A stretch of DNA of 64,000 nt from positions 1 to 64,000 of the forward strand of contig JAFSCS010000014.1 in the NCBI GenBank assembly GCA_017436675.1, written 5' to 3'. The stretch comes from Clostridia bacterium (GTDB lineage Bacteria > Bacillota > Clostridia > Oscillospirales > CAG-382). Made by a program: the position numbers and the translations under genes. The notes beneath the pieces are model-generated. The model was not told where the DNA came from. It did no database searches and worked only from the letters and a program-made list of their open reading frames with translations. Positions 13,375 through 58,023 of this stretch are shown here, one piece after another. Positions within the stretch are counted from its first letter, which is position 1. Every line of letters starts with the position of its first letter.

Positions 13375-13581
13375 GTGAAGTTTTTGCCGTTGCAAAAGTG
13401 AAGTTGTGCTGTGCACAGTGATGTTGTTCGCCACGGGCTCACAGTGAAGTTAAGTTTGCCATAACTTCGCCGCGAGGCGAAACTTCACTCACGAAGTGAA
13501 CTTCACTATCGAAGATAACTTCACTTACCCGAAGGGCAAACTTAGTTTTAGCGTGTTCTCCGTTAAGGATAACACGCTAAA
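13375..13581 (-). repeat. GTGAAGTT/AACTTCAC hairpin array, copy 3
   Basis: Read on the minus strand it opens with a hairpin TTTAGCGTGTT/AACACGCTAAA, then ACTAAGTTTGCCC. Small hairpins separated by GTGAAG follow, then hairpins separated by AACTTCACT, up to 13375. The order matches the plus-strand arrays at 48457-48674 and 51059-51277. Stems change in compensating fashion: TTATCTTCGATA here stands where TTGCCTTCGGCA stands in the other two. Confidence 0.85.
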
Positions 13582-47130: not shown

Positions 47131-48489
47131 ATGAAAAAAATACTTTTAGATGAATTAATAACGATAAACGATATAAATTCCGACGGCGTAGGCGTCGGAA
47201 AGCGTGAGTGCGGAAAAACAATATTTGTTAAAGGTGCCGTCGTCGGCGATGTAGTAGAGGTTGGTATAATAAAGGAATCGAAAAACTATGACGTCGCGAC
47301 AGTGGAGAATATCGTCACCCCGTCCGAGTGGCGAGTGGATTGCGATTGCCCCGCATTTAACCGTTGCGGCGGCTGTGTCTACCGTAATATCAGCTATGAA
47401 AAGGAGCTCGAGCTGAAATATAATATCGTGAAAAACGCATTGAAGCGTATCGGAAAAACAAACGCACAGCTCGAGGGGATAACGAGTGACAGCGAGTTTG
47501 ACTATCGTAATAAGGTGCAGTACCCCATATCCACCAATAAAAACGAAGAACTCGTCTTCGGCTATTATGCAAACCATACCCACGAGGTCGTCCCGCATAC
47601 GAGCTGTAAGCTCCAAAGCGACGATTTTTCAAGAGCAGCATCTGCGTTCATCGAAAAAGCAAAGGAATTGGGTATGACCGCGTATGACGAAAAAACGGGA
47701 AAAGGACTTCTAAGGCACCTCGTTATGAGACGAACACACGATGGGAAAATGTCGTTTATGGTGGTCGTGAACGCCAAAAAGCTCGAAAATTGGAACGTTT
47801 TGCTCGACGCAGTAAGAAATAGCGGAGTGGATGTCGTGTCGTTTTCCGTCAACAGTAATATGAAAAATACCAACGTCATAGTGGGCGAGCGCGCCGAGGT
47901 GATGTGGGGAGAATGCGGTATCGTTGAAGAATTGTGCGGAAAAAGGTTCAGTATCTCGCCAATGTCTTTCTATCAGGTCAATCGAAAAATGACCGAAAAG
48001 CTCTATAATAAAGTAAAAGAGTATGCAAAGCTCGAAAAGGGAGAAACACTCCTCGACCTCTATTGCGGTATCGGAACGATAGGACTCTGTGTCGCAAATA
48101 ACGATAATACCCTCGTCGGAGTCGAAATAATTCCCGATGCAGTGAAAAACGCAGAGTATAACGCGGCACTCAACGGCAGAAACGAAGAGAATACAGTCTT
48201 TGTCTGCGGTGATGCATCAGTTGGTGTAAATACAGTAACGAAGAAATTCGGAAAATGTGACGTCATCATCGTCGATCCGCCAAGAAAAGGGCTCAGCGAG
48301 GAGGTCATCAACGAAACGCTCCGCGCACAGCCAAAGCGCATCGTCTATGTCTCGTGTAACCCGGCAACACTCGCAAGAGACGTCGAAATATACGAAAAAA
48401 ACGGCTATATCTGTGAATCAGCCTCCGCCTTCGACCTTTTCCCCCGAACAGGACACGTTGAAACTATTGTTTGTCTCAACAAACAATAG
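47131..48489 (+). CDS. rlmD: 23S rRNA (uracil-5-)-methyltransferase, RlmD/TrmA family
   Basis: 452 residues. N-terminal TRAM domain (about 5-62), an iron-sulfur cysteine set (CDCPAFNRCGGC), then the SAM domain with LLDLYCGIGTIGL, DPPRKGL and the nucleophile Cys in YVSCNPATLARD. Firmicutes often carry two paralogues (RlmCD types), so the exact uridine is open. The last 33 nt of the gene form one arm and part of the other of an 18-bp hairpin that opens hairpin array copy 1; the stop codon lies inside that hairpin. Confidence 0.93.
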   Translation: MKKILLDELITINDINSDGVGVGKRECGKTIFVKGAVVGDVVEVGIIKESKNYDVATVENIVTPSEWRVDCDCPAFNRCGGCVYRNISYEKELELKYNIVKNALKRIGKTNAQLEGITSDSEFDYRNKVQYPISTNKNEELVFGYYANHTHEVVPHTSCKLQSDDFSRAASAFIEKAKELGMTAYDEKTGKGLLRHLVMRRTHDGKMSFMVVVNAKKLENWNVLLDAVRNSGVDVVSFSVNSNMKNTNVIVGERAEVMWGECGIVEELCGKRFSISPMSFYQVNRKMTEKLYNKVKEYAKLEKGETLLDLYCGIGTIGLCVANNDNTLVGVEIIPDAVKNAEYNAALNGRNEENTVFVCGDASVGVNTVTKKFGKCDVIIVDPPRKGLSEEVINETLRAQPKRIVYVSCNPATLARDVEIYEKNGYICESASAFDLFPRTGHVETIVCLNKQ

Positions 48490-48674
48490 TTTCAACAACT
48501 AAGTTTGCCCTTGCGGGCAAGTGAAGTTGCCTTCGGCAGTGAAGTTCACTGCGTGAGTGAAGTTTCGCCTGACGGCGAAGTGGGGCAAACTTAACTTCAC
48601 TTTGCGACGAAGGAACAAAACTTCACTACGAACGAAGTGAGTAACTTCACTTTTGCGAAGCAAAAACTTCACCA
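48457..48674 (+). repeat. GTGAAGTT/AACTTCAC hairpin array, copy 1
   Basis: It opens with an 18-bp perfect hairpin (48457-48474/48479-48496, loop CTCA). Then comes AACTAAG, and small hairpins TTGCCCTTGCGGGCAA, TTGCCTTCGGCA, TTCACTGCGTGAGTGAA and TTTCGCCTGACGGCGAA separated by GTGAAG. After GTGGGGCAAACTTAACTTCACT the polarity flips to AACTTCACT-separated spacers, the last being TTTGCGAAGCAAA. It ends 22 nt before the four-helix-bundle gene, so it also serves as that gene's leader. Confidence 0.88.
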
Positions 48675-48696
48675 AACACCAAAAAGGAGAAAACCT

Positions 48697-49050
48697 ATGA
48701 AAGATTCCGAATTGCGCACAAGAGCAAAAGCTCTTGCCTTACATATAATCACCGTCTGCGATGAGGTAGATACTCGTAAGGGCAGAGGTGTACTTGTCAA
48801 TCAAATAGTTAGGAGCGCCACTTCCATCGGTGCAAACATTCACGAAGCAAACTATGCAGCAAGCAAAGCCGATTTTATAAACAAGCTCCATATCGCACTC
48901 AAAGAATGTGGCGAGACGGAATATTGGATTGAAATGCTCGTTGGTTCAAATGCGATAAGCGAACAAACTGCAAAAGACCTTTTGCAGGAGTGTGGTGTCA
49001 TTCGCCGTATGCTTGTGAAATCTATAACCACAGCAAAAGAAAATCAATAA
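48697..49050 (+). CDS. four-helix-bundle protein (S23/Avd-like family)
   Basis: 117 residues, four amphipathic helices. The core ALHIITVCDEV, GVLVNQIVRSATSIGANIHEA and FINKLHIALKECGETEYWIEML is the signature of the 23S rRNA intervening-sequence / Avd family. Such proteins form barrel pentamers with a basic surface that bind nucleic acid; in diversity-generating retroelements Avd partners a reverse transcriptase, but none is here. AAGGAG lies 8 nt before the ATG. The next gene begins 10 nt after its stop, so the two are an operon. AT-richer than the flanking chromosome. Confidence 0.9.
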   Translation: MKDSELRTRAKALALHIITVCDEVDTRKGRGVLVNQIVRSATSIGANIHEANYAASKADFINKLHIALKECGETEYWIEMLVGSNAISEQTAKDLLQECGVIRRMLVKSITTAKENQ

Positions 49051-49060
49051 GGAGAATAAA

Positions 49061-49960
49061 ATGAATCATAATTTTTCTATCAATCTGAAAAGACTCAGAG
49101 AGAATAATGGATTTACCCAAGAAACATTTGCTCAAGCCACGGGTTTAAAAAGAAACACAATTGCTTGCTACGAAACTGAGAGAAGAGAATGCGATTTTGA
49201 CACACTTCTTCTTTTTGCTAAAGTTTTAAATTGTTCGACTGATGATTTGTTAAAAGCACCCGAAGCAACCGATAAAATACTTACAATGGAAACAGCTTCT
49301 GCCACGAATATCAAAGGTGTAATTTATATTTTGACAAATCCATCTTTCAAAGAATATGTAAAAATTGGATATGCTGATGATGTTGAAAGACGTTTGCAAG
49401 AACTCAACCGAAGCGAGTGTGTCCCTTTCTCTTTCCGCATATATGCTACGTATGCCGTAACTTCAAGATTATCTGATAAGAATGTACATTCAATCATTGA
49501 CAGATTAAACCCCGATTTGCGCACTGTAGAAAATGTAAACGGAAAAAAGCGCGAACGCGAATTTTACGCTATGGAGCCAGAAAAAGCGTACAAAATTCTT
49601 GAAGCTATTGCAGAAATGCACGGATTTACCGACAGACTAAGGCTTTGGTGTCCTACAAGCGCAGAGCAAGTAGAGGAACGAGAAGCTCAAGATATTGAAA
49701 AGGAAAGCAGAACACGCTCTAATAATTTTACATTTTCAGAATGGCAGATTCCTGTTGGAGCAATTTTACAATATCGCCTTGATCCCTCCGTAACCTGTGA
49801 GGTTGTTGACGAAAGAAAAGTAAAGTTTAACGGCGAGACAATGTATTTAACTGGTGTTGCAAAAAAATGTCTTGGAAAAGATAACGGTGTTTGTGGTCCT
49901 GACTACTTCACATACAAGGGCGCAAAACTTTGGGATATCGATGGAAGAATTGGTAATTGA
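49061..49960 (+). CDS. XRE helix-turn-helix / GIY-YIG fusion protein
   Basis: 299 residues in three parts. Residues about 5-65 form an XRE-type helix-turn-helix (NGFTQETFAQATGLKRNTIACYE). Residues about 85-180 resemble a T5orf172/GIY-YIG nuclease: GVIYILTNPSF, then VKIGYADDVERRLQEL with the catalytic Arg. Residues about 225-295 (IPVGAILQYRLD, VKFNGETMYLTGVAKKCLG, GPDYFTYKGAKLWDI) resemble a RAMA/DUF4357-type DNA-reader domain. A self-regulated nuclease of a defence or mobile-element system is plausible. AGGAG overlaps the upstream stop. Base composition is AT-rich, suggesting transfer. Confidence 0.82.
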   Translation: MNHNFSINLKRLRENNGFTQETFAQATGLKRNTIACYETERRECDFDTLLLFAKVLNCSTDDLLKAPEATDKILTMETASATNIKGVIYILTNPSFKEYVKIGYADDVERRLQELNRSECVPFSFRIYATYAVTSRLSDKNVHSIIDRLNPDLRTVENVNGKKREREFYAMEPEKAYKILEAIAEMHGFTDRLRLWCPTSAEQVEEREAQDIEKESRTRSNNFTFSEWQIPVGAILQYRLDPSVTCEVVDERKVKFNGETMYLTGVAKKCLGKDNGVCGPDYFTYKGAKLWDIDGRIGN

Positions 49961-50007
49961 TATGTTTCCTATTACTAGCTAAAAACAATAATATTCCGTG
50001 TTTTTAG

Positions 50008-50075
50008 GGGACAAATGTTACTTTCGAGCGAAACTTGAAAGTTCGTTTTACAGCAGTTTAGTATAACATATCGAA
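50008..50075 (+). repeat. 68-bp cassette 5' element, copy A
   Basis: Begins GGGACAAATGT and ends CATATCGAA. It matches 51284-51351 at 55 of 68 positions with no gaps; GAAAGTTC and TTTTACAGCAGT are exact. It stands 26 nt before the start of the membrane-protein gene. Confidence 0.8.
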
Positions 50076-50101
50076 GTTCCTATAAAGGAGGAGTAAGGCC
50101 T

Positions 50102-51046
50102 ATGACAAGTACCAAAAGAATTTTATTTGTTGTTTTCATACTGATATTTTTCACTGGGATTGCTATCGGTTTGATAGGTAGATCAATATGCACACGAGAT
50201 AACGAAAACTATCAAAATGTGCAGGTAGAACTGTTTGCTCCGGACGAAATTGCTACTGTTTTACATGATGAAGATCTACATCAAATTTATGTATGCTATA
50301 ATGATGCCTCCTATGTAAATGTCTATTCTGAAGAAGGCCGATTTCTTTGGGCGGTATCGACACCTTATTTAAGAAATGTGTACTTTGAGCTTTCCAATAA
50401 TCAACTCATTGTATATAATTCTGCTGATGCTTACATTTATGATTCATCAAACGGAACTTTTGTTGAAAAGAAAAAATCAGATGATATTGATTTGAGTTAC
50501 GATTGGGAAAACGAATATACGGACGATTTCCAAAACGGCGAATTTTATTTTGATACATATCAAGTCTACAAGGCGCAAGAAGATGGATCACTGACTACAG
50601 TCGTTGCACGTCCGTGGTGGTACTGGGTATTTAATTTTGGTGTTTGCTGGTGTGTATCGTTTGTCGGTGCTATTGGAATGGGAACTATCATTTTTCTTGA
50701 AAAACGGAAAGAGTATCGAAAAACGCAGAAAGCTATACACCCTTCAAAGCATTCAATCGCAATAGAAAATCGCAAAGCAAGGTTTATTCTGAAATACTTT
50801 CGGATTACCTCGATCATTCATGTGGTTTATGCCGTTTTAAATATTGTTTTTGGAATTTTGATGGATGGCATTCTTTGCATAGGCATTTTGCCGCTTGCAA
50901 TTCATTTTATTATATCCAGCATCGTGCTTGATCATATTCGTCTCACAAAGGACGAACAAACGATAATCGATTATTGGGAGGTTTTTGAAATAAGTACTTT
51001 TATAATCGCATTCTTGTCTGTTATCGTCGCAGCAATGCTGGCATAA
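50102..51046 (+). CDS. membrane protein with outside sensor-like domain
   Basis: 314 residues. One helix at about 7-27, an extracytoplasmic domain (about 35-172) with short repeated strand patterns (IYVCYNDASYVNVYSEEGRFLWAV, LIVYNSADAYIYDSSNG) that resemble two or three beta-propeller blades. A helix follows at about 178-200, then a basic cytoplasmic loop and three C-terminal helices (about 240-312). I do not recognise a family. GGAGG precedes the ATG. It is bracketed by the 68-bp element and the 13-bp AAATATACCTTTT motif and is AT-rich, so it looks like a transferred cassette gene. Confidence 0.75.
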   Translation: MTSTKRILFVVFILIFFTGIAIGLIGRSICTRDNENYQNVQVELFAPDEIATVLHDEDLHQIYVCYNDASYVNVYSEEGRFLWAVSTPYLRNVYFELSNNQLIVYNSADAYIYDSSNGTFVEKKKSDDIDLSYDWENEYTDDFQNGEFYFDTYQVYKAQEDGSLTTVVARPWWYWVFNFGVCWCVSFVGAIGMGTIIFLEKRKEYRKTQKAIHPSKHSIAIENRKARFILKYFRITSIIHVVYAVLNIVFGILMDGILCIGILPLAIHFIISSIVLDHIRLTKDEQTIIDYWEVFEISTFIIAFLSVIVAAMLA

Positions 51047-51058
51047 AATATACCTTTT
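51046..51058 (+). repeat. 13-bp cassette 3' motif, copy A
   Basis: AAATATACCTTTT begins at the last base of the membrane-protein stop codon. The identical 13-mer stands 5 nt after the stop of the next island gene (51708-51720). Confidence 0.65.
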
Positions 51059-51277
51059 CGTCGAGACTGTCGTGTGTCTCACACGACGACTCGACAACTA
51101 AGTTTGCCCTTGCGGGCAAGTGAAGTTGCCTTCGGCAGTGAAGTTCACTGTGTGAGTGAAGTTTCGCCTGACGGCGAAGTGGGGCGAACTTAACTTCACT
51201 TTGCGACGAAGGAACAAAACTTCACTGTGAGCGAAGCGAACAACTTCACTACGAGCGAGAGCGAGTAACTTCACCAA
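51059..51277 (+). repeat. GTGAAGTT/AACTTCAC hairpin array, copy 2
   Basis: It opens with an imperfect hairpin (GTCGAG...GTCGTGTG/CACACGAC..CTCGAC, about 51060-51085), then AACTAAGTTTGCCC and the same order of elements as copy 1, nearly identical over about 125 bp. Later AACTTCACT-separated spacers differ: GTGAGCGAAGCGAAC and ACGAGCGAGAGCGAGT. It ends 6 nt before the second 68-bp element. Together with 51278-51361 it fills the 315-nt gap between the genes. Confidence 0.88.
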
Positions 51278-51283
51278 AAGTCA

Positions 51284-51351
51284 GGGACAAATGTGAGTTT
51301 TGAACAAAGCTCGAAAGTTCATTTTACAGCAGTAATGGTTAACATATCGAA
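51284..51351 (+). repeat. 68-bp cassette 5' element, copy B
   Basis: 81 percent identical to 50008-50075 without gaps. It directly follows array copy 2 and ends 10 nt before the next start, where its final CGAA runs into the AAAGGAG ribosome site. Confidence 0.8.
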
Positions 51352-57856: not shown

Positions 57857-57872
57857 GTAAAAAAATAACAAA

Positions 57873-57967
57873 GCAGAGTAGAGGCCTATGCGTTAAGTGC
57901 CACACGGACGGGGAGTTGCCGTGCGGACGAAAAGATATCTTGCGGTCTAGGTCTCGCATCCCGCTGC
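57873..57967 (+). promoter_or_regulatory. THF (tetrahydrofolate) riboswitch
   Basis: GCAGAGTAGA at the 5' end, GCGTTAAGTG, GGGAGTTG and GACGAAAAGAT in order, closed by GCAGAG/CCGCTGC, match the THF riboswitch (folT motif). Downstream, CATAGG/CCTATG and a CTCCTA segment (57978-58000) can pair with the AGGAGG of folT (58010-58015), suggesting control of translation: bound folate hides the ribosome site. Confidence 0.9.
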
Positions 57968-58023
57968 TACATACATAGGTATCTCCTATGCTTGTAGCGA
58001 ATACAGTTAGGAGGTATTTTTTT

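Follow-up and report, generated by a model that had tools for sequence, protein, structure and literature searches.

Group IIC introns insert directly behind intrinsic terminator hairpins. Repetitive extragenic palindromes and bacterial interspersed mosaic elements (REP/BIME) are short palindromic units located downstream of genes in intergenic sequence, in either orientation, and are accompanied by a RAYT (Y1) transposase, and integron attC sites keep their structure as their sequence changes and may flank cassettes as direct repeats. The PF05635/S23/IVP protein family has been known since 1993 from rRNA intervening sequences. According to PMC4990558, the 23S rRNA intervening sequence (IVS), for example that of Coxiella burnetii, is selfish and takes the place of a 23S rRNA tetraloop; mobility has been proposed for it. 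Weinberg et al. (2010; PMC2864571) described Gut-1 RNA (RF01706), seen only in sequence from the human gut, as a likely noncoding RNA. Here we compare with these systems three hairpin arrays found in 64,000 nt of a Clostridia bacterium genome (contig JAFSCS010000014.1; this whole stretch is called the window). We consider it fairly probable that they represent copies of one small element, apparently mobile, which occurs in gut Clostridia, is associated with a PF05635 protein, and inserts at hairpins and gene 3' ends, probably by fold-back. Throughout, "element" means the array unit, L-numbers denote loci and G-numbers genomes, and the 61 genomes searched are this genome and 60 relatives from the same family and order.

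The arrays lie at 48457-48674 (copy 1) and 51059-51277 (copy 2) on the + strand and, inverted, at 13375-13581 (copy 3) on the - strand, with the sequences that the initial annotation gave for them. The motif AGTGAAGTT occurs 17 times in the window, against an expectation of 0.52, and every occurrence is inside one of the three arrays. Over the 160 nt that follow the junction with the opening hairpin, copies 1 and 2 share 94% identity. The whole unit consists of four linkers (W) and four reverse-complementary linkers (W'), with a small hairpin between neighbors and an inverted copy of the first arm where the polarity flips. Most elements follow the plan W1-h1-W2-h2-W3-h3-W4-h4-a''-W4'-h5-W3'-h6-W2'-h7-W1', with W near element positions 2, 25, 45, and 65 and W' near 100, 125, 150, and 175. 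Since the W linkers are followed by their complements, a long branched hairpin can form from a single strand. The h1 arm recurs inverted at the flip, as an exact inverted repeat of 7-14 nt in 57 of 64 elements, and could therefore pair locally or over a long range. In copy 1, for example, arm a (AAGTTTGCCC, 48501-48510, + strand) could pair with its own hairpin partner or with its inverted copy a'' at the flip (GGGCAAACTT, 48583-48592, + strand).

Pairing is preserved as the sequence changes. Across 47 non-identical elements from many genomes, arms paired within their own element at 98% (h2), 99% (h3), 65% (h5), 87% (h6), and 97% (h7), whereas arms swapped between elements paired at only 44-54% (0/5000 permutations for each hairpin); these permutations, like those below, ignore relatedness, and the within/between contrast is built on 11 to 21 different arms per hairpin. 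In the same 47 elements, W matched W' at 97.9% within elements and 79.5% between them (0/10000 permutations). Pairing was counted by script on segments, a MAFFT alignment of the first halves having put hairpins 2 to 4 out of register. The lower value of h5 may be due to its segment borders, which are less certain than those of the other hairpins. The initial annotation had proposed one structured element in several copies with compensatory changes; the stem changes it quoted read as written, and the covariation over 47 elements bears the proposal out. Identity through recent duplication only is ruled out, given that both stems and linkers differ between subfamilies, the linker words being GTGAAGT, GTGAAAT, ATGAAAT, GTGATAT, ATGATAT, GCGATAT, TCGATAT, and others. 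The compensatory changes may reflect selection on RNA or on single-stranded DNA, or else templated copying. Covariation in such repeats is by itself no demonstration of a functional RNA.

The arrays had been thought to belong to no named family, but Rfam's Gut-1 RNA matches the first half of the array in copy 1 (48496-48568, 52 bits) and in copy 2 (51095-51167, 51 bits), both above the gathering score of 50. Copy 3 matches at 13548-13477 with 44.4 bits in the genome search, under that score. The likeness covers both sequence and hairpins over the first 73-77 nt. The Gut-1 model spans the first 73 nt, or first three hairpins, only, which is less than half of the whole unit; here it corresponds to the first part of a longer dispersed element that lies behind hairpins, is linked with PF05635, and also occurs in the ruminant gut. 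Arrays of the same plan are present in metagenome-assembled genomes (MAGs) from goat, deer, sheep, and yak gut, at odds with a human-gut-only description. Searching gut relatives for more copies, as had been suggested, returned 510 Gut-1 matches over the 61 genomes. Of these, 21 are in the genome studied here (1.5 Mb, 54% complete), where some represent two halves of one element; 39 of the 60 relatives had matches, with up to 48 per genome. Within the open-access papers searched, RF01706 is named only by its source paper, and the phrase "Gut-1 RNA" was not found.

The element lies immediately 3' of a hairpin. At 72 of 80 unique sites it starts exactly at the 3' end of a hairpin of at least 10 pairs, whereas shifted control positions had such a hairpin in 0/240 and 1/190 cases. 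A T-run precedes the junction at 40 of the 80 sites, and a CCA-like end lies upstream at 42. In relatives the hairpin is often a tRNA or tmRNA terminator (CCA-GAAAA...TTTT, then CAAC), with tRNAs of many kinds; ARAGORN confirmed such a gene at 43 of 50 loci, which had been preselected as looking so. At a second class of junction the hairpin has no T-run and a CTTAAGG-like apex, and several elements of this class are enclosed by a terminator, with its left arm before the element and its right arm after. Copy 3 of the window and the elements at L009, L011, L013, L016, and L018 lie inside terminator loops. The terminator-like stem around copy 3, overlooked in the initial annotation, is formed on the - strand by a left arm at 13597-13582 (CAAAAGGAGCTCCCGA) and a right arm at 13238-13223 (TCGGGAGCTCCTTTTG, read directly), with 16/16 pairs; between them lie the opening hairpin (TTTAGCGTGTT...AACACGCTAAA, 13547-13581) and the array (13375-13546), likewise on the - strand.

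The opening hairpin had been regarded as always a hairpin yet unrelated in sequence in all three copies. The first part stands; the second does not, as copies 1 and 2 both read VET(I/V)VCL, the end of an rlmD gene. Nor is this hairpin an independently varying part of the element: it is the flanking target, a gene end or a terminator, with an inverted copy, and its sequence variability is therefore expected.

The end of rlmD illustrates this relationship. In the window, rlmD encodes the 23S rRNA m5U1939 methyltransferase (47131-48489, + strand; TIGR00479 rumA, 359 bits; PF05958). The left arm L of the copy 1 hairpin (48457-48474) is rlmD coding sequence, reading VETIVC, and the right arm L' (48479-48496) is its inverted copy, complementary at 18/18 positions and containing the rlmD stop codon (48487-48489). 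We compared rlmD orthologues of relatives and rlmD-like ends from later loci. The junction hairpin had a median score of 8.5 at 16 rlmD-type ends scored as carrying an array and of 4, practically no hairpin, at 24 scored as lacking one (P = 1e-7); the array scoring was automatic and imperfect, L116 (counted as filled) being doubtful and L104 (counted as empty) having a degenerate array. A natural terminator at the rlmD end is ruled out, since orthologues without an array have no hairpin there. Complete pairing of the kind seen in copy 1 recurs at L189 (19/19) and at L184 and L207 (13/13). The arms vary between hosts and track each host's own codons, so that the right arm must be either copied inversely from the local target or kept equal to it. 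Arrays with different words occupy this one site: GTGAAGT in the window, TCGATAT at L107 and L114, GCGATAT at L119, and TGAATTG at L184 and L207. These differing arrays at one gene end, each with an inverted copy of host codons, amount to a natural experiment that makes the insertion step directly testable.

Target-derived hairpins can also travel. The opening hairpin of copy 2 (GTCGAGACTGTCGTGTG-TCT-CACACGACGACTCGAC, 51060-51095, + strand; array at 51095-51277) has a left arm reading VETVVC, like an rlmD end, yet no rlmD lies upstream, and a near-identical hairpin is found at the rlmD ends of L108 and L114. In three cases (L104, L004, and the second copy of L148), the element seems to have brought loop and right arm to a local left arm. 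Separately, TGAATTG arrays were seen at rlmD-like gene ends (L184, L189, L192, L200, L207) and GTGAAAT and ATGATAT arrays behind tRNA terminators, a link between word and target that suggests element lineages with target specificity.

Sites are polymorphic among relatives. At one tRNA-Val locus, G020 carries an element (L149) and G036 has none (L280), the neighbors on either side being the same, and one tRNA-Ala locus holds elements of different types in two species of one genus, ATGAAAT in G017 and ATGATAT in G005. These filled, empty, and differently filled sites favor mobility, and we infer that the arrays are mobile.

Some element ends showed further features. At L131, L158, L162, and L164, the tails of tRNA-type elements hold GAGTTCGAATTC-like sequence and then AAAATATCTTTTT, similar to a tRNA T-arm plus a short terminator, and may be a trace of the insertion site. 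L018 and L019, both in the genome studied here, are ~98% identical over 401 nt. Their homology stops in a T-run (GTCTTTTTT), which has a pairing partner in the flank of L018 but not of L019; the right terminator arm seems to have moved together with the element. At L058, 19 nt from the 5' end of a tRNA-Leu gene (TTTATACGCGGGTATGGCG) stand on either side of the element with its PF05635 gene, forming a candidate target-site duplication.

A PF05635 gene is often found directly behind the array. In the window, the gene at 48697-49050 (+ strand), ~22 nt behind array 1, encodes a four-helix-bundle protein (PF05635 23S_rRNA_IVP, 88 bits against a cut-off of 33.8; TIGR02436, 102.6 bits). Among 123 PF05635 genes in the 61 genomes, at least 12 are preceded on the same strand by a Gut-1 match whose end lies 135-176 nt away. 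When 30 loci were picked by protein score alone, ~13 had a hairpin array upstream and ~14 a simpler form (together ~27/30), a split that combines a detector with reading by eye. The simpler form consists of tandem ~7-nt words before the PF05635 gene and inverse words after it, and its detector found 0/146 among control genes. Examples are L053, L055, L056, L057, L063, L067, and L068, with words such as AATGCAT, GTGCAAA, and CGGAATT and no hairpins between them; this is possibly an ancestral or alternative form of the hairpin-array element. In the protein tree, which has few columns and is weakly resolved, the two array forms cluster (9 changes for 18 simpler-form loci; 0/500 shuffles as low per group).

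A scan of named genomes gave 80 relatives of the protein in Clostridia and Oscillospiraceae MAGs, largely from the ruminant gut, and 65 of them have an array within 330 nt upstream of the gene. The closest, from Ruminococcus sp. RGIG1720 (86% identity), again has a hairpin (GCTGATGC-AAA-GCATCAGC) adjoining AACTAAG, and hairpin and half array are repeated behind its PF05635 gene. PF05635 is present in 30 of 32 genomes with at least three Gut-1 matches versus 13 of 28 others (P = 1e-4), and its rank correlation with Gut-1 copy number is 0.75, uncorrected for phylogeny. Neither reverse transcriptase nor Y1 transposase presence tracks Gut-1 copy number. Solved relatives of the protein (2RLD, 2GSC) have five chains each, and PMC4990558 describes the Xanthomonas one as a homopentamer. 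Only 11 four-helix-bundle relatives were found among viral contigs. We found no open-access literature linking PF05635 to hairpin arrays at terminators.

Could the array instead be a functional noncoding RNA, for example a transcript tail or a leader through which the four-helix-bundle mRNA is autoregulated, bound by the protein itself? The strong covariation seen in stems and linkers would fit, as would the position directly upstream of the protein gene at 65/80 named loci, which in the window would make the array a 5' leader. We nevertheless hold this explanation to be unlikely. Most arrays do not lie near a PF05635 gene, and tRNA-type copies follow a terminator and so, barring read-through, lie outside the upstream transcript. 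An exact TATAAT occurs within 90 nt before the protein gene at 35 of 91 loci, mostly 29-34 nt before the start among the matches listed (matches with one mismatch were at most slightly above shuffles); at those loci the array would fall outside the leader. Finally, up to 48 copies per genome and site polymorphism are unlike a regulatory RNA.

For a mobile element that inserts at hairpins and gene ends, a tentative mechanism can be sketched. The folded single strand of the element would insert at hairpins or at free 3' or transcript ends. At a target without a hairpin, a fold-back step would copy the target end into L', and the gene would thereby retain its open end along with a stop codon. The four-helix-bundle protein, whose solved relatives are pentamers, may bind the folded strand and aid insertion, with a putative enzyme breaking and joining the strands. 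Should this hold, the orphan RNA motif Gut-1 and the orphan protein family PF05635/S23/IVP become parts of one element, each with a testable role.

Several observations weigh against such an element. It includes no known nuclease, recombinase, or reverse transcriptase, and a shared gene neighborhood does not amount to a mechanism. Most arrays stand without an adjacent PF05635 gene; the fixed neighborhood raised in the initial annotation is thus partial, with the gene behind a minority of arrays and most arrays alone behind tRNA or protein genes. The lack of phylogenetic correction in the genome-level PF05635/Gut-1 correlation counts here as well. No transposition event was observed, and dispersal could be old. 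Eight of the 80 junctions have no hairpin by our test, some of them, such as copy 2 of the window, because of an internal bulge in the stem. The right arms at L104, L004, and the second copy of L148 mismatch the host, so L' was not copied anew at each insertion. Most elements lack a defined right end, and no precise excision product was found. Of the defined termini and target-site duplication expected of a miniature inverted-repeat transposable element (MITE), L018 and L019 show shared termini, but no precise, consistent duplication was found.

A broader proposal goes beyond these arrays: a class of mobile element with no transposase, integrase, or reverse transcriptase of its own. A pentameric four-helix-bundle protein would bring the folded hairpin-ladder strand to hairpins and to the 3' ends of RNA genes, where insertion would leave an inverted copy of the target end. 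This would also explain the mobility of the 23S rRNA IVS, and we regard it as speculative and rather doubtful. The array element and the rRNA insertion may be of one kind, chiefly because hairpin-loop insertions of both types hold the same protein. Like the IVS with its S23/IVP gene, the element encodes this four-helix-bundle family and is inserted into a hairpin or stem-loop. The targets differ, being tRNA or tmRNA terminators and gene 3' ends here, with none in a 23S rRNA helix (copy 1 follows rlmD), and a hairpin ladder with an inverted target copy is unreported for the IVS in the available part of PMC4990558. None of the open-access papers searched describes a hairpin ladder, a hairpin target, an inverted target copy, and a PF05635 protein together, which is no proof of novelty.

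The position just behind a hairpin, at 72/80 junctions and with a T-run at 40, is shared with group IIC introns. The element differs from these in that no ribozyme core and no reverse transcriptase were found; the window has no Rfam group II intron match. A reverse transcriptase acting in trans was rejected, as there was no copy-number association and no match to PF00078 in six high-copy draft genomes (G000, G017, G020, G039, G047, G059), where absence is uncertain. With REP/BIME the element shares short palindromic units in intergenic regions behind genes. A REP/BIME system with RAYT was likewise set aside: the same six draft genomes have no match to the Y1 transposase family PF01797, and Y1 transposase shows no association with the arrays, being present in 13 of 32 genomes with at least three Gut-1 matches versus 11 of 28 others. 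A resident reverse transcriptase or RAYT is thus unlikely.

Integron attC sites resemble the arrays in that structure is kept despite sequence change and direct repeats may flank a cassette; the array differs in being a multi-hairpin ladder. The arrays could accordingly be structure-recognized recombination sites of a cassette system, in which the left arm stays with the host, loop and right arm arrive with the element, and copies 1 and 2 flank a 2.6-kb cassette. These two copies are indeed direct repeats around three genes, tandem units at L171 and L148 repeat loop and right arm with a local left arm, and the foreign right arm of L104 fits a crossover in the loop. Most arrays, however, are single, loop length ranges from 3 to 8, empty rlmD ends offer no second arm for a recombinase, and reading of the loci, which was not a systematic search, brought no integrase gene beside the arrays to notice. 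We judge a cassette system quite improbable. Most improbable of all is that the complementarity is a replication by-product of inert repeats, with template switching (quasi-palindrome correction) keeping stems perfect without selection: this would suit an L' that tracks the host's codons and linkers homogenized inside one element, but the 4:4 plan and constant spacing are kept across families and differing linker words, and correction alone leaves dispersal to new sites and the PF05635 link unexplained.

Between copies 1 and 2, the PF05635 gene is followed on the + strand by a gene for a helix-turn-helix (XRE) and T5orf172 (GIY-YIG-like) protein (49061-49960) and by one for a predicted membrane protein with no family match (50102-51046). 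A 68-nt repeat with 81% identity (GGGACAAATGT...TTTTACAGCAG...AACATATCGAA) is present at 50008-50075 and 51284-51351, upstream of two unrelated genes; its second copy is directly behind array 2, and it is perhaps a common promoter region or another repeat. Elsewhere in the window, a tetrahydrofolate (THF) riboswitch (RF01831, 88.9 bits) lies at 57872-57968 on the + strand.

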